Of a DNA stretch of 64,000 nucleotides, positions 39,604 through 48,901 are shown one piece after another (position 1 is the stretch's first letter; each line of letters opens with the position of its first letter). The stretch spans positions 62,001 to 126,000 of the forward strand of contig NZ_JANYGQ010000003.1 of the NCBI RefSeq assembly GCF_025359345.1. The letters run 5' to 3'. The position numbers and the translations under genes are program-made. The stretch is from Mucilaginibacter sp. GTDB lineage: Bacteria; Bacteroidota; Bacteroidia; Sphingobacteriales; Sphingobacteriaceae. A model generated the notes under the pieces. The model worked only from the letters and a program-made list of their open reading frames with translations, was not told the origin of the DNA and did no database searches.

Positions 39604-39682
39604 TTTAGTCGATAGACCATAGATCATAGTCCATAGGCTCCACATTTTACTATGGACTATGGACTATCGACTATGGACTTAT
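39604..39682. repeat. Heptamer-periodic palindrome, copy 4
   Basis: Left arm 39604-39643 and right arm 39645-39682, with 7-mers such as ACTATGG (repeated), ACTATCG and finally ACTTATT, which covers the stop codon of hisIE. It is the 3' boundary of the histidine operon. Confidence 0.85.
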
Positions 39683-40266
39683 TTATGTCTTCCTTCTAAA
39701 TTTTTTGCAATCTGCTCCAGGCTTAGGCCTTTTTCGCGCAGTAGTACCAGCAGGTGGAATACAAGGTCGGATGATTCGTTTATCAAATCGGTTTCCGTTT
39801 CGGCCAGGGCTGCTATAACGGTTTCAACGCCTTCTTCGCCAACTTTTTGGGCTATTTTGTTCAGTCCTTTATTCCGTAGCTTATTGATGTACGAACCTTC
39901 CTGCGGGTTTTCATACCTGTCGGCAACAATGGCTTCCAGTTGCAGTATAAAGTTCTGGTTGTATTCTGTTTTAAAACAGCTTCGCGACCCGGTATGGCAG
40001 GTGGGGCCATCTGCTTTCACTTTTATCAGCAGGGTATCGTTATCGCAATCAATGTCGATGCTCTTTACATGTAAAAAGTTATTGCTGGTTTCGCCTTTTG
40101 TCCACAAACGGTTTTTCGAACGCGAGTAAAACGTTACAATATTTTCCTGGACGGTTTTATCGTAGGCTTCCTGGTTCATGTAGCCAAGCATCAGCACTTC
40201 AAGGGTTTGCTCGTCCTGTATTATTACGGGTACTAACCCGTCTGACTTGTTGAAATCGATGTTCAT
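39679..40266 (-). CDS. hisIE: Bifunctional phosphoribosyl-AMP cyclohydrolase / phosphoribosyl-ATP pyrophosphatase
   Basis: A 195-residue fusion catalysing steps 2 and 3 of histidine synthesis. HisI occupies about residues 1-105 ([20 protein letters not shown], the metal-binding [10 protein letters not shown] and CHTGSRSCF), and HisE about 110-195 ([31 protein letters not shown]). All expected catalytic stretches are intact. It is the last gene of the his operon, separated from hisF by a palindromic repeat. Confidence 0.97.
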
Positions 40267-40401: not shown

Positions 40402-41160
40402 TTACACTTCCCTCACCTCAATATTATTCGCTCTTAAAACCTTCTTCAAATCCGGTATCAATATCTCTCCATAGTGAAAGACAGAAGCAGCCAAAGCCGC
40501 GTCGACATTACTTTGTTTAAATACGTCTATAAAATCCTGCACAGAGCCGGCGCCACCAGAAGCGATTACCGGGATATTTACTGCATTGTTTACTTCCTTT
40601 AAAAAGCGATTATCAAACCCTGCTTTAGTACCGTCGTGATCCATCGAGGTTAGTAATATTTCGCCTGCGCCGCGGCTTTCTGCTTCCATTATCCAATCCA
40701 ATGTTTCCTTTTCGGTTGGTACACGGCCTCCATTTAAGTGGACGATATTTTTACCTGCTATGACCCTTGTATCAACGGCTATCACCACAAACTGAACACC
40801 AAACGCTCTGGCCAATTCATCAATCAATGCCGGATTACGCACGGCCGCGGAATTGATAGAAATTTTATCTGCCCCTGCATTTAAAAGCGCATCAGCATCA
40901 GCAATTTCATTAATGCCACCGCCAATTGTGAATGGTATGTTTATTTGCCGTGCAACAGACTTCACCAGTTCCACCATCGTTTTGCGGCGCTCAACCGTTG
41001 CTGTAATATCTAAAAATACCAGTTCATCTGCTCCCTGCTGCGAGTAATTCCAGGCAAGCTCAACAGGGTCGCCTGCGTCACGCAGGTCGACGAAGTTTAC
41101 ACCTTTAACGGTTCTGCCATCTTTAACATCTAAACAGGGGATTATTCTTTTACTAAGCAT
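40402..41160 (-). CDS. hisF: Imidazole glycerol phosphate synthase, cyclase subunit
   Basis: A 252-residue TIM barrel that forms IGP and AICAR using ammonia from HisH. Start [15 protein letters not shown] and the catalytic Asp residues (CLDV; later AVDTRV), the phosphate-binding TIGGGI and ASGGAG loops are present. The open frame extends upstream to 41262 only because it reads through a palindromic repeat (translated as FVPRNDK); the true ATG is at 41160, which gives the family length. Confidence 0.97.
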
Positions 41161-41169
41161 TATTTCACT

Positions 41170-41262
41170 TTTGTCATTGCGAGGAACGAAGCAATCTCGT
41201 CGAAGATATAATAGATATGCATTGCGACGAGGTTGCTTCGTCGTTCCTCCTCGCAATGACAA
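41170..41262. repeat. GTCATTGCGAG palindromic repeat, copy 2 (hisA-hisF gap)
   Basis: Arms at 41170-41202 and 41225-41262 are nearly identical to copy 1, including the same two 3-nt duplications in the right arm; only the loop differs. It starts 4 nt downstream of the hisA stop codon. Confidence 0.9.
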
Positions 41263-41265
41263 TAA

Positions 41266-42015
41266 TTATATGGAAATTAGTGATTCGAGGTTCCAGTGCT
41301 TTACGTCCTCTATTGTAATATGTCCTTCATAAATAGCTTTACCCACTACGCACGATTCAACCTTGATATTGCTTAATTGCTCAATATCGTCCATCGAGCT
41401 TACGCCGCCTGATGCAATAAGTTTAATGAAAGGGGAGTGGTCAAGCAGTTTTTCGTAAAGCTTTATTCCGGCGCCGCCAAGTTTGCCGTCTTTATCAATA
41501 TCGGTACATAAGAAGCGGAAAAAGCCGAGCTGAAGGCATTTATCAACGTAATCCATTAATTTTATGGGCGAACTTTCCATCCAGCCGGAATATTTAATTA
41601 CCTCGTCCAGCACGTCAATAGCAATTACCACCTGGTCAGAACACTTGTCCTTACCACAAACTGCTTTGCTTAGTTCGGGCAAAAACGATGGGTTGGTTAA
41701 CGCTTGCGTACCAACGATAACGCGATGGACTCCCGAATCGATCAGCTCTTTAACTTTTTCAATACTGCGGATACCGCCACCGTACTGAACCTTCATATCG
41801 GTTTTGTGGATTACGTCAAACAGGTATTCCTGATTGCTGAAGTCGTTTTTAGCGCCGTTAAGGTCGATGATGTGGATGAAATTGGTGCCATTCGATTGAT
41901 ATCTTTCTATCATCTCTTCCAGGGAAACATCGTATTCAGTTACCTGGTTATAGTCGCCTTCACGCAGGCGCACAACCTTTTTGTTTAAAATATCAATTGC
42001 CGGGATAATGTACAT
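41266..42015 (-). CDS. hisA: ProFAR isomerase (1-(5-phosphoribosyl)-5-[(5-phosphoribosylamino)methylideneamino]imidazole-4-carboxamide isomerase)
   Basis: A 249-residue TIM barrel for step 4 of histidine synthesis. Catalytic Asp in PAIDIL and the second in CTDIDKDGKLGG, and the phosphate loops QYGGGIR and ASGGVSS are present. A slightly longer loop (CGKDKCSDQ) precedes the VVIAIDV strand compared with common HisA. It starts 6 nt after hisH. Confidence 0.96.
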   Translation of the reverse strand: MYIIPAIDILNKKVVRLREGDYNQVTEYDVSLEEMIERYQSNGTNFIHIIDLNGAKNDFSNQEYLFDVIHKTDMKVQYGGGIRSIEKVKELIDSGVHRVIVGTQALTNPSFLPELSKAVCGKDKCSDQVVIAIDVLDEVIKYSGWMESSPIKLMDYVDKCLQLGFFRFLCTDIDKDGKLGGAGIKLYEKLLDHSPFIKLIASGGVSSMDDIEQLSNIKVESCVVGKAIYEGHITIEDVKHWNLESLISI

Positions 42016-42021
42016 GTCTTT

Positions 42022-42672
42022 TTAAATTTTAGAAAAGTTTTTTAGTAAGGTTTCACCATACGCGCCTGATTTTTCGGGATGGAATTGCACTCCATAAAAA
42101 TTATCCCGCATAATTGATGCCGAAAATTTGTTTATGTAAGTTGTTGACGATAAAGTGTATGTAACATTATACTCAATAAAGTATGAATGTACAAAGTAAA
42201 AATGTGAACCGTTAGGAATATTTTCAAAAAGTGCATTTCCCATTTCCGGAAAAACCTGGTTCCAACCGGTATGCGGTACTTTAAAATTAGTATCGCCTGC
42301 AAATTTCAAAGTCTTTATCGGGAATAAATCGAGCAACTTCGAATCACCCTCTTCGGAATACGAGGTAAGTAACTGCATGCCCACACAAATGCCCAATACA
42401 GGCTTTTTAAGCGCTTTGATCGACGGTACCAGTCCTGTGTGCTCCAATTTAGCCATTGCAGCTCCTGCATGCCCTACACCGGGAATTATATAGCGGTCGT
42501 ATTGTTCGAAATCTTCTTCCTTATTTATCATTCCATACGGAATACCCAACCGCTCCAAAGCAGCAGTTAAAGAGAAGATGTTTCCGGCGCCGTATTGTAT
42601 TATTCCAATGCCCCCCGGCCCCCTAAAGGGGGAGGTGTCTCGCAAATTACTTTCCTGCTTTATTTCATTCAT
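42022..42672 (-). CDS. hisH: Imidazole glycerol phosphate synthase, glutamine amidotransferase subunit, with repeat-derived N-terminus
   Basis: A 216-residue class-I glutamine amidotransferase feeding ammonia to HisF. The catalytic Cys is in LGICVGMQLL and the His/Glu pair in VQFHPEKSG. The canonical protein begins at IGIIQYGAGN, but here no start codon lies directly before it. The nearest ATG is at 42672, and the added N-terminal residues (ending TSPFRGPGG) are encoded by one arm of a CCCCCTAAAGGGGG palindrome. A TTG inside this stretch is an alternative start. The core fold is intact, so the gene is probably functional with a ~21-residue extension. Confidence 0.93.
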   Translation of the reverse strand: MNEIKQESNLRDTSPFRGPGGIGIIQYGAGNIFSLTAALERLGIPYGMINKEEDFEQYDRYIIPGVGHAGAAMAKLEHTGLVPSIKALKKPVLGICVGMQLLTSYSEEGDSKLLDLFPIKTLKFAGDTNFKVPHTGWNQVFPEMGNALFENIPNGSHFYFVHSYFIEYNVTYTLSSTTYINKFSASIMRDNFYGVQFHPEKSGAYGETLLKNFSKI

Positions 42673-42708
42673 GCTAATCAAAATTCCCCCTTTAGGGGGT
42701 TAGGGGGC
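42611..42708. repeat. CCCCCTAAAGGGGG-type palindrome spanning hisH start and hisB-hisH gap
   Basis: Arm 1 (42611-42642, core CCCCCTAAAGGGGG) lies inside the hisH reading frame; arm 2 (42684-42708, core CCCCCTTTAGGGGG then TTAGGGGGCC) lies between the hisB stop and hisH start. The arms are inverted relative to each other, and each core is itself palindromic. Confidence 0.8.
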
Positions 42709-42710
42709 CT

Positions 42711-43859
42711 CTACAGTAATCCTTTAGTGCTTGGTAAAACCATATTATTTACATCACGTTTTACAGCCATTTTTATTGCTTTAGCAAAGGCCTTAAATAT
42801 AGCCTCAATTTTATGGTGCTCGTTTTCGCCTTCGGCTTTTATGTTCAGGTTGGCCTTTGCCGCATCGCTGAACGATTTAAAAAAGTGGAAGAACATTTCC
42901 GTCGGCATTTCGCCGATTTTTTCTCGTTTAAATTCTGCATCCCAAACAATCCAGTTGCGGCCGCCAAAATCAATAGCCACCTGTGCCAGGCAATCGTCCA
43001 TCGGTAGGCAAAATCCATAGCGTTCAATGCCTTTTTTATTGCCTAAGGCTAATGCAAATACTTCACCAAGGGCAATGCCTGTATCCTCGATGGTGTGGTG
43101 TTCATCAATATGCAAATCGCCATTGGCAACAATTTCCAAATCAATACTTCCGTGGCGGGCAATCTGGTCAAGCATATGGTCGAAAAAGTGGACGCCGGTT
43201 GATACCTTCGCGTCGCCTTTGCCGTCCAGGTTTATTTTTATGTAGATATCAGTTTCCTTAGTGCTGCGGCGGTGTTCAAAAACGCGCTGACCAAGCTTTA
43301 GAAATTCGTAAACCTTTTGCCAGTCGGTGGTTTGGAGTACAGCGGTTTGGTGTACAATTTCTTCTTCCCCAGCCTTAAACTCTGCGCCACCCATGTTTGA
43401 GCCGTTATTCAACCAAATAGCCTTTGCGCCCAAATTATGCCCAAGCAGCACATCGTTTTTGCGGTCTCCAATGGTAAACGAGTTTTTTAAATCGTATTTT
43501 TCAGCATCAAAATACTGGGTAAGCATGCCGGTGCCGGGCTTGCGGGTAGGCGCATTTTCAGCAGGAAAAGTCCGGTCGACGCAAATATTGGAGAATACAA
43601 CACCTTCGTTCGCAAACGTCTTTAACACCATGTTTTGTACCGGCCAAAATGTATCCTCGGGATATGATGCAGTTCCCAAACCATCCTGGTTGGTAACCAT
43701 TACCAGTTCAAAATCCAGCTCTTTGGCTATCTTGGGCAGGTATTGCAAAGCACCAGGGTAAAAAGTAAGCTTCGCAAACGAGTCGATTTGTTCGTCGGGT
43801 GTTTCGTTAATCATTGTACCGTCGCGGTCAATAAATAGTATTTTTTGCAGGTTACTCAT
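42711..43859 (-). CDS. hisB: Bifunctional histidinol-phosphatase / imidazoleglycerol-phosphate dehydratase
   Basis: A 382-residue fusion. Residues 1-165 are a HAD-IIIA phosphatase ([21 protein letters not shown], Zn-loop region and [11 protein letters not shown]). Residues about 190-382 are IGP dehydratase, with metal-binding [27 protein letters not shown] and [11 protein letters not shown]. It thus provides steps 6 and 8, so no separate histidinol phosphatase is needed. It overlaps the hisC stop by 4 nt. Confidence 0.97.
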
Positions 43860-44902
43860 TTAAAGTTTTGTAAGGTTTCGAGTAATATGTTGTTTTCGGC
43901 AGCGGTACCAACGGTTATGCGCAGGCAGCCTTCGCAAAGTTCCACTTTCGAACGATTGCGAACTATAATCCCCTTATCAACCAAATAATTGTAAATGCCG
44001 TTTGCATCTGTTGTTTTTACCAGGATGAAGTTGGCATCCGACGGGTAGATATCGACTACAAAGTCAAAGTGCTTCAAACCAAGCACCAAGTTGTCTCTTT
44101 GTATCAAAGCCTCTTTAATCCAGCTGTTTATTTGCTCAATATTTCCCAGCGCCTGTAGTGCCAGTTGTTGCGATGCCTCGTTAATGTTATATGGTGGTTT
44201 CACCTTATTCATTACCTCTATGATCTCTTCGCTTGCGAAGGCCATTCCCACACGCAAGCCAGCCAGGCCCCATGCTTTGGACAGCGTTTGCAAAACAACA
44301 AGGTTAGCGTATTCTGTAAGCTCCTGTATAAATGTTTTTTGGCGACTGAAATTGATATAAGCTTCATCAACCACCACAATACCACTAAAGTTGGCCAGCA
44401 AAGTTTCAACATCTGTACGATCTATCGAATTACCGGTAGGATTATTTGGCGAACAGATAAATATCAACTTGGTATGTTCATCAATTGCCTCGGCAATGCC
44501 TTCTAAATTCAATTGAAATTCTTCAGTAAGCGGCACATTCTTTACAGCGATGTCATTAATATTAGCTGATACCTGGTACATGCCATAAGTAGGCGGAACC
44601 AGGATAACGTTGTCTACTCCTGGATTACAAAAGCTGCGGAAAAGGATATCTATCGCCTCATCGCTGCCGTTGCCCAAAAATATATTGCGCGGTGGCACGC
44701 CTTTAATCTGGCTTAAGCGCTTTTTAACTTCAAATTGTAACGGATCGGGGTAACGGTTGTACTGCTGCTCCAACGGCGAGCCAAATGCATTTTCATTGGC
44801 ATCAAGGAACACGCTGGCCTCGCCCTGGTACTCATCGCGTGCCGAGGAGTAGGGGGTGAGGTTTTTTATATTTTCTCTGAGTAATTTATCTATGCTAAAC
44901 AT
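43856..44902 (-). CDS. hisC: Histidinol-phosphate aminotransferase
   Basis: A 348-residue PLP-dependent fold-type I transaminase, step 7. Visible: [37 protein letters not shown] and the PLP-lysine motif [14 protein letters not shown]. Full length. Lies 6 nt after hisD and overlaps hisB by ATGA. Confidence 0.97.
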
Positions 44903-44908
44903 TATTCT

Positions 44909-46198
44909 TTATTCTTCTTTTAAACGGACACTTACGGCATTTTTATGTGCATGTAACCCTTCCAACTCCGCCAATATTTCAACTGATGGCCCGATATTTT
45001 GCAACCCTTCTTTGGTTAGGTGTTGAAAGGTTATTTTCTTTACAAATGAATCAACCGACACACCTGAATAGGCCCTTGCATACGAACTGGTTGGCAATGT
45101 GTGATTGGTGCCGGATGCGTAATCCCCGGCACTCTCAGGCGTTAAATTGCCCAGGAATACCGAACCAGCATTGATGATTTTTGCAGTTATCTGTTGCCAA
45201 TTTGCTGTGGCTAATATCAAATGCTCCGGTGCGTATTGGTTGCTGAAATCCATAGCCTCATCCAAATTGCCAGTTACCACGATGTACGAGTTTTCAATGG
45301 CAACTTTTGCAATTTCGGCGCGTGGCAAAACAGCGAGTTGTTTATCAAGTTCATTTAAAACATCTTCTGCAATTTGTTTCGACGTGCAAACCAAAATCGA
45401 CTGGCTATCCATGCCGTGTTCTGCTTGTGCCAGCAAATCGGCAGCGGCAAAAATCGGATTGGCGGTTTCGTCGGCTATAACCAGCACCTCTGAAGGCCCG
45501 GCCGGCATATCGATAGCAGTTGTTGTGGTCGACTGGATGATGGTTTTAGCCTTGGTTACAAACTGGTTGCCGGGGCCGAATATCTTATCCACTTTGGCTA
45601 TGCTTTCCGTACCGTAAGCCATGGCGGCGATAGCCTGTGAGCCTCCCGCAAGAAATATCTTATCAATTCCCAGCAACAGCGCCACGTAAGCTATAAACGC
45701 ATTTACCTTGCCATTTTTTTGTGGTGGCGAACAAACCATAATTTCGTGGCAGCCTGCTATCTGAGCCGGTATGCCCAGCATTAAAAACGTGCTTGGTAAC
45801 ACCGCCGAACCACCGGGTATATACAACCCTACCTTTTCGATCGGCCGCAATTCGCGCCAGCAGGTAACACCGGGCATGGTTTCAACTTTGTCTTCGGATT
45901 TTATTTGCGCCTGGTGAAATTTGTAGATGTTGTTGTAAGCCACCTTTAACGCTGCTTTCTGTTCATCAGAAACTGACGATGCAATTTCAGTTAGCTCAGC
46001 TTTATCCAAATAAAGTTTTTCCAGTTCAACCTTGTCAAACTTATGGGCATAATCAAACAAAGCACTATCACCGTTTTGCTGAACATGGGCAATCACATCT
46101 TCAACAATAGCGCGTATTTCGTTAGCCGGGTCAACGTTGCGTTGAACGAGTTGTTGAATGTCGCTTTTATTTAAGTCTAAATAGTTAAATACCTTCAT
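44909..46198 (-). CDS. hisD: Histidinol dehydrogenase
   Basis: A 429-residue zinc enzyme for the last two oxidations of histidine synthesis. Motifs: GLYIPGGSAVLPSTFLMLGIPA, GPGNQFVTKAK, DMPAGPSEVLVIAD, AEHGMDSQ (Zn ligands) and YAPEHL, GTNHTLPT. Full length. Preceded by a 149-nt gap full of palindromes that separates it from hisG. Confidence 0.97.
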   Translation of the reverse strand: MKVFNYLDLNKSDIQQLVQRNVDPANEIRAIVEDVIAHVQQNGDSALFDYAHKFDKVELEKLYLDKAELTEIASSVSDEQKAALKVAYNNIYKFHQAQIKSEDKVETMPGVTCWRELRPIEKVGLYIPGGSAVLPSTFLMLGIPAQIAGCHEIMVCSPPQKNGKVNAFIAYVALLLGIDKIFLAGGSQAIAAMAYGTESIAKVDKIFGPGNQFVTKAKTIIQSTTTTAIDMPAGPSEVLVIADETANPIFAAADLLAQAEHGMDSQSILVCTSKQIAEDVLNELDKQLAVLPRAEIAKVAIENSYIVVTGNLDEAMDFSNQYAPEHLILATANWQQITAKIINAGSVFLGNLTPESAGDYASGTNHTLPTSSYARAYSGVSVDSFVKKITFQHLTKEGLQNIGPSVEILAELEGLHAHKNAVSVRLKEE

Positions 46199-46200
46199 AG

Positions 46201-46333
46201 CTCAGGCCCCCAATCCCGCTAAAGGGGAGTTACGTCCGCTTTGCCCCCAAACCCCCTAAAGGGGGCTTAAAAGCGCTTTTTGTTAGTTAATTATCTCACC
46301 CTTCCTTTTTGCTCCTCCGCTATTTAGCGGAGG
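46201..46333. repeat. Palindromic repeats in the hisG-hisD gap
   Basis: Two direct copies related to the hisH-associated palindrome (46205-46228 and 46243-46266, cores CTAAAGGGG and CCCCCTAAAGGGGG), the 12-bp palindrome AAAAGCGCTTTT at 46269-46280, and a perfect 8-bp hairpin CCTCCGCT-ATTT-AGCGGAGG at 46314-46333, 14 nt after the hisG stop. No T-run follows, so termination is not obvious; mRNA processing or partial polarity are alternatives. Confidence 0.75.
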
Positions 46334-46347
46334 CCGGAGGGCTTTGC

Positions 46348-47199
46348 CTACAATATTATCTTCTCAATCGGCATTACCACAATGCCTTGTGCACCTGCTT
46401 GTTTTAGCTGGCTTATCCTGTCCCAAAAATCGCGTTCAGGGATTACGGTGTGTACCGCAACCCAGTTTTCTTCGGCTAACGGAACTACCGAAGGGCTTTT
46501 TACGCCAGGCAGCAGTGCCGTTATAGCAGCTAAATTATCCCTGTGCACATTTAATACCACGTATTTGGTTTCCTTAGCCCGCAATACCGACTGGATTCGT
46601 TGTATCAATTCCAATACCAGATCTTCGGTTTCGCTGCCTTTGCGGCCAATAAGCACCGCTTCAGACGACATTACATCGGCAAATGGTTTTAAACCGTTGC
46701 TTTTTAACGTGCCGCCGGTTGAAACCAAATCGCAAATAGCATCGGCCAAACCCAGGCCGGGCGAGATTTCAACTGAGCCTGAAATGGTGCGGATGTCCGA
46801 AGTAATCCCATTTTCCTTCAGGAACTTGCCCAAAATAACAGGGTAGGTGGTAGCTATCGATTTACCGTTTAGTCCGGCAAGATTTTGAATGTCGTCGTTA
46901 TTAGGTACGGCAATTTTGAGCGAGCATTTGCCAAAGCCAAGGCGCTGCAGGTAACTTACTTTAACTTCGGTCTCCTGTATCACGTTTTCGCCAACAATAC
47001 CCAGGTCGGCAATGCCGTCCTGAACATATTCTGGGATATCGTCGTCGCGCAGAAAAAGAATTTCGAGCGGGAAATTTGAAACAGGAGAGATAAGCGAGCT
47101 TTTGTAGTTTTCGAAACTTAAGCCACAATTTTTTAATAATTCAACGGATTTTTCGTTGAGCCGGCCAGATTTCTGGATAGCTATTTTGAGTGTTTTCAC
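46348..47199 (-). CDS. hisG: ATP phosphoribosyltransferase (long form)
   Basis: A 283-residue enzyme of the long HisG type: catalytic domains (KIAIQKSGRLNEKS, DGIADLGIVGENV, SGSVEISPGLGLADAICDLVSTGGTL with the PRPP loop) plus a C-terminal ACT-like regulatory domain (about 215-283) for histidine feedback inhibition. The start codon is GTG at 47199; the sequence MKTLKIAIQKSGRL matches the family start. It is the first structural gene, 68 nt downstream of a His-rich leader peptide. Confidence 0.96.
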   Translation of the reverse strand: MKTLKIAIQKSGRLNEKSVELLKNCGLSFENYKSSLISPVSNFPLEILFLRDDDIPEYVQDGIADLGIVGENVIQETEVKVSYLQRLGFGKCSLKIAVPNNDDIQNLAGLNGKSIATTYPVILGKFLKENGITSDIRTISGSVEISPGLGLADAICDLVSTGGTLKSNGLKPFADVMSSEAVLIGRKGSETEDLVLELIQRIQSVLRAKETKYVVLNVHRDNLAAITALLPGVKSPSVVPLAEENWVAVHTVIPERDFWDRISQLKQAGAQGIVVMPIEKIIL

Positions 47200-47267
47200 T
47201 GATTGGTTTTAAAGGAACTATAATAAAAATATAAACGGAAGGTTGTTATTTCACGTAGAAACATACA

Positions 47268-47330
47268 TTATCTAATCACCACATAGTGGTGATGGTGCAG
47301 GTGCAGATGATATAATGTATAACCGTTCAT
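47268..47330 (-). CDS. His-rich leader peptide (putative histidine attenuator)
   Basis: A 20-codon open frame, ATG at 47330 and TAA at 47270-47268. Residues 8-15 read HLHLHHHH: six histidines in eight codons, immediately upstream of hisG and downstream of a strong promoter. The RNA can form an 8-bp hairpin from the last His codons (47275-47282 with 47286-47293), enclosed by a 9-bp pairing between leader codons 4-7 (47312-47320) and the leader stop region (47263-47271). A ribosome stalled at His codons would break both. This is the layout of classical amino-acid attenuators. A canonical T-rich terminator is not obvious before hisG, so the downstream switch is unclear. Confidence 0.85.
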   Translation of the reverse strand: MNGYTLYHLHLHHHHYVVIR

Positions 47331-47364
47331 TTTTTTTGTATAGTAAAACGATAGATAATGCGTG

Positions 47365-47394
47365 CAAATATAGGGAATGGATTATTAAATCAAA
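47365..47394 (-). promoter_or_regulatory. Promoter of the histidine operon
   Basis: On the minus strand, TTTG (47394-47391) and TATATTTG (47372-47365) are exact Bacteroidota -33 and -7 elements separated by 18 nt. Transcription would begin near 47358, about 28 nt before the leader-peptide ATG. Confidence 0.75.
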
Positions 47395-47494
47395 ATTTTA
47401 TTTCGATTTGCTTGTTTCGGTATCGTTAAGGCAAAATTAAATTTTGGCTGTTCCTCAGTGATTTGACAACTTTTTAAAAGTTGTCGAATCTAAC

Positions 47495-48739
47495 TTACAA
47501 AGCGTGATCAGCGTGTAAATCGCCGCCTTTCCAAGCTTTTTTAGCGCTCCAATCTTCATTTGAGCTGCTCCAAAACAAGTCCGATTCCGACAGCCCCAAT
47601 GGTAGCAAAATTGCCGAACACAGGTATAAACTACCCGTAGAAATATACGTTTCCGCTAACGACGGCTGATGCCCGTAAACCCCGATCCGCAGCCAGCCAT
47701 TCTCATCAAACATCTCTTTGGAATCGGTCACTTTTTTAATAACAGTAGTTAGTGCGCAGCGTACCTGCGCCGGGTTTAACTCTTTTGGCAATTGCTGTCT
47801 GTAAGCCATATTCGCCAGGTGATGAAACGCCCCGGTGCGGTAAGTGATCGATCGGCCTATGATTGGGTAAGTGCCATCAAATCCAATTAAACGTTCCTGT
47901 ATCTGGCTATAACGAAGATTGCGGGTTAGAACCTGTTTTCTAATTGGTTCAAAGGCTTCATCTTTGGTTGCCACAATCTTTAAGACATCGTACAAATAAG
48001 GATGAATTACAAAACTGTTGTAATAATCCCAGTGAAATTCCGCACCATCGCCGTACAGGCCATCACCTTTATACCAAAGCTGGTGCTGTTTAATTGCGTA
48101 ATCAATCCTTGCCATTTCAAAAGGCTGGTTTATGGTGATGAAGAAAGCCTCGATCATAGCCGCAAACAGTAGCCAGTTATTTTCAGGAGGTTTTATCTTG
48201 CGGGTTTTAAGCAGGGCGGCAATTACATTTTTTCGTGTGCCGGCATCCAAAGCTTCCCACAATTTAGGACAGCGGATAAGACCATAAGCAAAAAAGGAGG
48301 CATCTACCAGGGGCTGTCCACCTTCGTCGCCCCAATTCATATAATCCTTAGCAGCGGGATTGGTGGCGTTTTCAATTCCTTTTATTACGAGTTTAAAATA
48401 CCTGGTCTGCAGATGTTTTTCAGCTTCATTAATATGTTCGGCCTGTAACCATGGAGTAATACCGCATAACAGGCGGCCAAAAGCTTCAAGATGAGTGTAT
48501 TTTGCCCGGTCGTTTATTAACGATGGCTCTTTAGCTTCAACGGGCATTTTTTGTTTGAGTTGGTCGACGGCAAGTGCGGTTAATACAGGTTCTGCTAATT
48601 TTTGGAGATAGTTTAGCCAAAAATTGCGGGTGTTCGTAGGGGAAGAGGCAGCTTCTAATGATTTGGTGGTAAATGGTGCCGATATTAACGGAACTATCCC
48701 CAGTACACCGGTATTTTGTAAAAAACTTCTCCTCTTCAT
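47495..48739 (-). CDS. DUF2264 domain protein, exported
   Basis: A 414-residue protein with an N-terminal KRRSFLQNTGVLG twin-arginine-like signal. The mature part has the DUF2264 pattern: RNFWLNYLQKLAEPVLTALA, LEAFGRLLCGITPWL, YMNWGDEGGQPLVDASF, KIKPPENNWLLFAAMIEAF and GDGAEFHWDYYNSFVIHPYL. The family adopts an (alpha/alpha)-type fold and is suspected to act on plant polysaccharides (uronate-containing), but the activity is not settled. It shares no operon with neighbours; a palindromic repeat precedes it. Confidence 0.9.
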   Translation of the reverse strand: MKRRSFLQNTGVLGIVPLISAPFTTKSLEAASSPTNTRNFWLNYLQKLAEPVLTALAVDQLKQKMPVEAKEPSLINDRAKYTHLEAFGRLLCGITPWLQAEHINEAEKHLQTRYFKLVIKGIENATNPAAKDYMNWGDEGGQPLVDASFFAYGLIRCPKLWEALDAGTRKNVIAALLKTRKIKPPENNWLLFAAMIEAFFITINQPFEMARIDYAIKQHQLWYKGDGLYGDGAEFHWDYYNSFVIHPYLYDVLKIVATKDEAFEPIRKQVLTRNLRYSQIQERLIGFDGTYPIIGRSITYRTGAFHHLANMAYRQQLPKELNPAQVRCALTTVIKKVTDSKEMFDENGWLRIGVYGHQPSLAETYISTGSLYLCSAILLPLGLSESDLFWSSSNEDWSAKKAWKGGDLHADHAL

Positions 48740-48762
48740 CCTTTGGAATTATTAAAAAAGAA

Positions 48763-48860
48763 TTTGTCATTGAGAGTAATGAACGAATGCGGCAATCTCG
48801 TCGCTGTTCATGTTCGCGAGACATGGCGACGGGATTGCTTCGTTCCTCGCAATGACAAAG
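48763..48860. repeat. GTCATTGCGAG palindromic repeat, copy 3 (diverged)
   Basis: Arms at 48763-48804 (TTTGTCATTGAGAGTAATGA...) and 48825-48860 (...TTCCTCGCAATGACAAAG). The left arm is expanded and mutated relative to copies 1 and 2, and the right arm lacks their 3-nt duplications. It lies between the DUF2264 and GT-C-like genes. Confidence 0.85.
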
Positions 48861-48901
48861 CTTTATTGTTTTGATTATCAATAAGATAATAGATATTTAA
48901 T

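Follow-up and report, generated by a model that had tools for sequence, protein, structure and literature searches.

Leader-peptide attenuation upstream of amino-acid operons is a known mode of control. The described systems closest to the locus analyzed here include the enteric his attenuator (hisL) and the erm-type translational attenuators (PMC8274638). In the latter, a ribosome that stalls while translating the leader reshapes the mRNA ahead of the target gene. In Actinobacteria, terminator-less amino-acid leaders, namely LEU of leuA and those of cys, have been predicted; in LEU, the leader Leu codons pair with the ribosome-binding site of the target, and the element includes a Shine-Dalgarno box and a pseudoknot (PMC1262725, accessible sections). 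Within Bacteroidota, Flavobacterium psychrophilum has been noted to have leader-peptide attenuation in front of amino-acid operons as well as a structured element that precedes hisG (PMC9723704, accessible sections), and the 5' UTRs of Bacteroides thetaiotaomicron contain short ORFs resembling leader peptides (PMC7366714, accessible sections). In the accessible portion of a study of his genes across the Bacteroidota superphylum, attenuation is mentioned once, for enterics, and the word "leader" is absent from the main text (PMC8305728). The literature searched, in which subscription literature is covered in part, contains no account of the his leader of Sphingobacteriaceae.

The his operon of Mucilaginibacter sp. 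is located on the minus strand of the window, i.e., the whole stretch of 64,000 nucleotides that was analyzed and to which all coordinates refer. Its promoter consists of a -33-like TTTG (47391-47394) and, 18 nt past it, a -7-like TATATTTG (47365-47372); the combination TTTG-N18-TATATTTG (47394-47365), which we take to be of the Bacteroidota type, is exactly as given in the original prediction, and comparison of upstream sequences shows TATATTTG or near variants of it ahead of the leader in numerous relatives. The leader ORF, identified by its sequence and its conservation in relatives, encodes MNGYTLYHLHLHHHHYVVIR and extends from an ATG at 47330 to a TAA at 47268. As had been claimed, this frame of 20 codons, with six His among eight (codons 8-15, HLHLHHHH), lies between the promoter and hisG. 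The latter gene (46348-47199, TIGR00070 and TIGR03455) begins with GTG at 47199, and an in-frame TAA is present four codons upstream of this start. The operon downstream of the leader, hisGDCBHAF-IE, is complete: hisD (44909-46198, TIGR00069), hisC (43856-44902, TIGR01141), bifunctional hisB (42711-43859, NF003937), hisH (42022-42681, TIGR01855, with the family match starting at residue 25), hisA (41266-42015, TIGR00007, E-value 6.9e-66, with 222.2 bits slightly below the curated cut-off of 228.95), hisF (40402-41262, TIGR00735, with the family match starting at residue 35) and hisIE (39679-40266, NF002747). The gap between hisG and hisD (149 nt, 46199-46347) is long for an otherwise compact operon. 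Upstream of the his promoter, an inverted repeat GACAACTTTTAAAAAGTTGTC (47465-47485) is located directly past a DUF2264 gene (47495-48739) and is possibly the terminator of that gene; the frame at 48537-48881 presumably resembles a dispersed repeat that is often mistaken for a gene.

The leader is nearly universal in the relatives that were sampled. Among the best 80 named loci by HisG (more matched), most of which are from Mucilaginibacter and the rest from Pedobacter, Daejeonella and others, all 79 testable loci carry a His-rich leader; the untestable one (L047) has only 20 nt upstream of hisG. The leader frames of these 79 loci comprise 11-20 residues with 4-6 His per eight, and the His frame is located 103-148 nt upstream of the start of the hisG match. 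Outside the genus, 61 genomes were taken of the 72 matches from the family, which, from the named loci, we take to be Sphingobacteriaceae; 60 of these genomes, from 18 other genera, encode a His-rich leader, and the His runs are kept in each of the 18 genera. The two sets share some genomes, and across both of them a short frame with a His run upstream of hisG is conserved with a single exception, in line with the test that the original prediction had set; the complete conservation in the 79 testable loci also bears out the original view that a chance origin of the run is unlikely. In the single exception, L157, hisG has a TTG start and no His leader is found within 400 nt upstream.

No compact hairpin followed by a T-run was detected by a terminator scan between the leader and hisG in any of 130 members of Sphingobacteriaceae, the window included (resampled-sequence controls, 0/105 and 1/59). 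The counts of 130, 127 and 125 members used here omit rows L098-L110 except L099, L105 and L109: L098, L102, L103, L104, L106, L107, L108 and L110 are genomes repeated in L111-L170, and L100 and L101 were dropped along with them, though without a duplicate match themselves. A different picture is seen in all 59 genomes outside the family among 64 matches from the class (31 families). A His-rich leader is found in 52 of them, and such leaders are thereby documented across the class, in many of its families; 46 of these 52 leaders (23 families) are followed by a hairpin and a T-run before hisG, and six lack a terminator according to the scan. The hisG start is ATG in 45 of the 46 terminator-bearing cases and in five of the six others. 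The original prediction that the usual terminator is missing and that the output might differ from the enteric one thus agrees with the comparison between families. With a terminator in place, the leaders of relatives in these other families presumably act on transcription. Outside Sphingobacteriaceae, L193 (family f2) combines a His-rich leader with no detected terminator and a TTG start of hisG; it possibly underwent the same change independently. Intermediates were sought by an order-level search, from which only Sphingobacteriaceae came back.

A trpE-like gene of the same genome (L260, contig C10, reverse complement of about 1301-1435; best match TIGR00564, yet below its cut-off) is preceded by a Trp leader, MFKINHINSWWHQLNLAAGKVFDLND, in which, by eye, two Trp codons are followed by a terminator of classical appearance, AACCCGGCGAACCTCATTCGCTGGGTTTTTTG, and by the ATG start of the gene. 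Because this leader keeps its terminator, the loss at his is not general in this genome. Upstream of ilvD in the same genome, no clear leader was seen. With a terminator in most sampled sister families and at the trp leader of the same genome, and none at the his leaders of Sphingobacteriaceae, the locus offers a traceable case of a control device that probably changed its output step and kept its sensor.

The start codon of hisG follows the same division. In the 114 close-spaced members of the family (leader stop to hisG of at most 90 nt), the start is GTG in 58 and TTG in 54, i.e., in 112 of the 114; of the remaining two, L123 has ATG and L166 reads AAA where the match begins one codon late and a GTG precedes. 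No in-frame ATG is found upstream of the hisG start before the next in-frame stop in the close-spaced members. In 15 distant members (spacing 100-319 nt, three genera), which together with the close-spaced ones make up 129 of the 130 (L133 was left out), ATG is used in 14, and the other, L145, has an ATG one codon upstream. In the other families of the class, hisG starts with ATG in 55 of 59. Within the best 80 loci by HisG, the start is non-ATG in 77 of 78 hisG genes, compared with ATG in 74 of 75 hisD and 63 of 63 hisC genes, where ATG was scored if present at the start or up to 30 in-frame codons upstream and loci unaligned at the protein start (one for hisG, eight for hisC) were set aside. 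A HisG tree of 79 sequences implies at least nine changes of the start codon with a single ATG tip, though ATG is one base away; non-AUG initiation may nevertheless be partly inherited. The distance from the leader stop to hisG is 66 ± 7 nt in the close class (n = 124, still with the rows that the counts of 130, 127 and 125 omit), with post-stop intervals of 52-85 nt. Genus g4 holds both classes, with TTG in three close members and ATG in six distant ones. In g4 (L134, L146, L148, L151, L155, L159), extra sequence seems, by eye, to be inserted between P1, the long-range helix described below, and the ATG-started hisG, and several members keep an (A)TTGAA that looks like a relic of a former TTG start. 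P1 is kept in at least some distant members (g4 and g13), and genus g11 combines P1 with an ATG start. In Flavobacterium, initiation independent of Shine-Dalgarno pairing depends on structure within about -20 to +20 and also on adenines near -3, -6, -12 and -13 (PMC6847099, accessible sections).

The leader region of the window folds with -33.4 kcal/mol, compared to -22.3 ± 3.1 for 200 shuffles, and shuffles of a shorter stretch give -19.8 ± 3.3 against the same native value; in each case none of the 200 is as good. The MFE fold contains both pairings of the original prediction, namely an 8-bp hairpin of the His codons, P3 (AUCACCAC/GUGGUGAU, 47293-47286 with 47282-47275), and an enclosing 9-bp pairing across the stop codon, P2, which joins leader codons 4-7 (47320-47312) to a strand that holds the leader stop codon (47271-47263). 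In addition, the fold includes a hairpin directly past the leader, P4 (GUUUC-UACGU-GAAAU, 47248-47262), and P1, whose 5' strand (47323-47349) runs from the pre-leader region across the leader AUG into codons 2-3, most of which it includes, and whose T-rich 3' strand (47206-47238) is located at about -39 to -7 of hisG. Neither of these, nor the non-AUG start of hisG, was part of the original prediction, which described the contents of 47268-47394 correctly but drew the element too short, as it reaches the hisG start at 47199. P4 and P2 coexist in the ribosome-free fold of the window. At zero mismatches, the his locus is the sole site of the P4 motif in its own genome, and at one mismatch there is one other; the possibility that P4 is a module common to several operons was rejected, with a reversed-pattern control giving 4 and 2 matches. 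Upstream of the leader AUG, many Mucilaginibacter leaders show, by eye, a small hairpin CUAUAGU-UUU-ACUAUA (47337-47356 in the window, where it is degenerate; L031-L097). It shares its 3' strand with P1 and would exclude part of it, so that the two possibly form a second switch.

Pairing was further assessed by a swap test, in which each 5' strand was paired with the 3' strands of other genera and native and swapped combinations were compared. P1, which joins the region of the leader start, AUG included, to an often T-rich strand just before hisG, varies widely in sequence between genera, e.g., UAAUCAG-ACCAA with UUGGU-CUGAUUA as opposed to ACUAUA-AUGAACGG with CCGUUUAU-UAUAGU. The native combination is nonetheless better than the swapped ones in 17 of 18 genera (125 of 127 sequences, L133 and L159 being left out), and for the upstream part of P1 in 15 of 15. 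The extension at the leader start overshoots for some sequences (e.g., L161 and L124), which may explain the sole failure, genus g15. In 42 of the 67 leaders of the Mucilaginibacter set, leader codon 2 begins with an A that faces U, and in 22 with a G that faces C, as counted on the best duplex of each sequence, i.e., with pairing maximised. For P4, the native strands win in 16 of 17 genera, a score biased upward by a locator that picks the best hairpin; the variants are mostly GUUUC-UACGU-GAAAC or close to it, with GUUUUG/CAAAAC in two genera and GCUUC/GGAGC in one sequence. An alternative pairing of leader codons 2-8 with the loop and 3' strand of P4, denoted P2ext, is favored in 15 of 17 genera and, sharing one strand with P4, is mutually exclusive with it. 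P2 (12/17) and P3 (11/17) do not clearly exceed control region pairs (5/17, 8/15 and 9/17), and the compensatory changes anticipated for these two stems are weakly supported. RNAalifold, run on a MAFFT alignment of 64 Mucilaginibacter leaders, recovers P4 alone and no double changes; strand-swap tests were used because MAFFT shifts the 3' strand of P1. Judged by such comparisons, compensatory evidence is best for P1, P4 and the pairing that competes with P4 and weak for P2 and P3. Genus g5 lacks P4 and P2ext in the swap-test set. In its members L152, L154, L162 and L163, inspection by eye suggests that the leader can pair with a GCAGCG element past the stop codon and that an A/T-rich hairpin precedes the ATG-started hisG.

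Constrained folding was used to place ribosomes on the leader. Two quantities were averaged over 44 leaders from other genera, namely the local pairs formed past the stop codon and the pairs that leader codons 2-9 make with the post-stop region. The ribosome-free RNA has 0.5 of the former and 14.2 of the latter. A ribosome placed at the first His codon changes the two averages to 6.6 and 0.5, one at the last His codon gives 3.9 and 7.6, with about half of P2ext left, and one at the stop codon gives 1.1 and 9.8. Among 67 Mucilaginibacter leaders, a ribosome at the first His codon raises the number of local post-stop pairs from 3.8 to 7.4, and most of P2ext persists with one at the last His codon (9.7 of 12.0 pairs). 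Constrained folding thus supports the expectation that a stalled ribosome changes the fold for a stall at the first His codon, and much less so for one at the middle or last. The same is seen for P1 in 111 close-spaced leaders: of 15.6 expected pairs in the ribosome-free state, a stall at the first His codon spares 6.3 and a stall at the middle His codon 12.6 (21.5 of 21.6 in the window, where P1 stays intact), and 14.6 remain with a ribosome at the stop codon. P1 falls to 0.1 pairs when a mid-run stall is combined with a ribosome on the leader AUG, and to 0.4 with a ribosome initiating at the AUG alone. Since initiation by itself abolishes P1, stalling is not the only event that opens this helix, and the model has to rely on how long the leader is occupied and on a queue that is assumed. 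The folding results predict that an early stall in the His run remodels the RNA and that a later one does so mainly when a second ribosome queues.

Folding predicts little change at the hisG start. In the 111 close-spaced leaders, the unpaired fraction at -20 to +15 is 0.62-0.64 in all six states, and at -10 to +6 it drops slightly with the queue, from 0.64 to 0.60. Direct sequestration of the start, in its textbook form, is not seen in these folds. In the window, P1 lies over about -39 to -7 of hisG, and the stretch at -40 to -11 is predicted to open from 0.44-0.45 to 0.60-0.63 with a queued ribosome, with -20 to +15 unchanged.

What emerges from comparing sequences is a conserved His-run leader, the absence of a terminator, a predicted helix P1, a predicted competition between P4 and the pairing of codons 2-8, and a non-AUG hisG. 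These features are best compatible with a leader-peptide attenuator that responds to His and follows a terminator-less design specific to Sphingobacteriaceae. Its output would most likely be translational and exerted at hisG, and we hold this interpretation with evenly balanced confidence. A translational output is favored, about as readily as doubted, by the start codon, the best clue, together with the tight spacing and the Flavobacterium initiation data. Under this interpretation, with enough histidyl-tRNA, ribosomes would clear the leader, which would then pair with the post-stop region as P1 closes, so that the initiation regions of the leader and of hisG would keep each other shut. When histidyl-tRNA is scarce, a ribosome delayed on the first His codons would occupy about leader codons 2-11, P4 would form in place of the leader:post-stop pairing, and P1 would weaken; a further ribosome waiting behind it at the leader AUG would abolish P1 and expose the U-rich stretch upstream of hisG, and this exposure before a weak GTG or TTG start would raise expression of hisGDCBHAF-IE. 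A more specific proposal, which we offer tentatively and with some more doubt than trust, is that the family inherited an attenuator of transcription and turned it into one of translation by losing the terminator, weakening AUG to GUG or UUG, and acquiring a helix that locks two initiation regions without Shine-Dalgarno sequences and is opened by stalled and queued ribosomes. The amino-acid sequence of the leader (e.g., V-F-T before the His run) would then be set by RNA pairing. The strongest points against a translational output are the distant-hisG members and the unchanged accessibility of the start.

Both points fit the chief rival, in which the leader peptide still controls transcription without an intrinsic terminator, through Rho-dependent termination or pausing at the T-rich tract after release of the leader ribosome, with a stalled ribosome preventing this. 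The terminators of the other families (46/52), with their presumably transcriptional output, the position of hisG 100-319 nt away in 15 members of the family, and the often T-rich tract before hisG all suit such a mechanism, which is possible although rather unlikely. The 52-85 nt that separate the leader stop from hisG in close-spaced members are a short stretch for the loading of Rho, and neither the non-AUG start nor the tight spacing of these members is explained. It is quite improbable that the output is an unusual intrinsic terminator, with the leader start as the 5' arm and CCGUUUAU as the 3' arm followed by a T-rich tract, whose formation a leader ribosome would prevent. The window does contain AUGAACGG/CCGUUUAU followed by AUUUUUAUU, but the loop would be about 84 nt, the duplexes are often G-C-poor, L123, L127, L134 and L136 keep P1 or P4 without a T-run there (by eye), and the scan for a compact hairpin with a T-run is negative in all 130 members. 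A decayed attenuator, with the leader kept by inertia and hisG expressed constitutively, would account for the missing terminators, for g5 without P4 and P2ext, and for the lack of a predicted change at the hisG start; the preservation of His runs in all 18 other genera sampled and the strands of P1, P2ext and P4, which match within and not between most genera, make decay highly improbable.

If the output is translational, as in the preferred interpretation, the locus would represent amino-acid sensing in a phylum whose ribosomes make no use of Shine-Dalgarno pairing and to which classical sequestration is not open. It would also connect the choice of start codon to attenuation in a way that can be tested. 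A scan of the window against Rfam at the gathering threshold, with the T-box covariance model included, yields no match, and in five Sphingobacteriaceae loci RF00514 (His_leader) and Thr_leader give none at E ≤ 0.1. Of 12 His-leader loci from other families, none attains the gathering score of a leader family, with sub-threshold matches to RF00514 in three (L214, L222 and L212) and to Thr_leader in two.

The his leader of Sphingobacteriaceae resembles enteric hisL in its frame of His codons, its competing RNA structures and its place before hisG, and the hisL-type property of exclusive structures set by ribosome position is predicted to be strong at the first His codon and partial at the last; the differences are the intrinsic terminator of hisL, found in none of the 130 members of the family, and the non-AUG start of hisG. 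With erm-type attenuators it would share a sensing ORF upstream of the target and a leader-stalled ribosome that remodels the mRNA upstream of that target, whereas histidyl-tRNA would serve as the signal and the hisG start is not predicted to open. The LEU element and the terminator-less cys leaders likewise combine an amino-acid leader peptide with the absence of a terminator, but LEU, as described in the accessible sections of PMC1262725, relies on a Shine-Dalgarno box and a pseudoknot, whereas in Sphingobacteriaceae P1 connects the start region of the leader with the sequence preceding hisG. The His leaders in other families of the class come from the same phylum and occupy the same position, 46 of 52 with a hairpin and T-run and 45 of these 46 with an ATG-started hisG; compared with them, the Sphingobacteriaceae form is distinguished by a missing terminator and, when hisG is close-spaced, by a GTG or TTG start.
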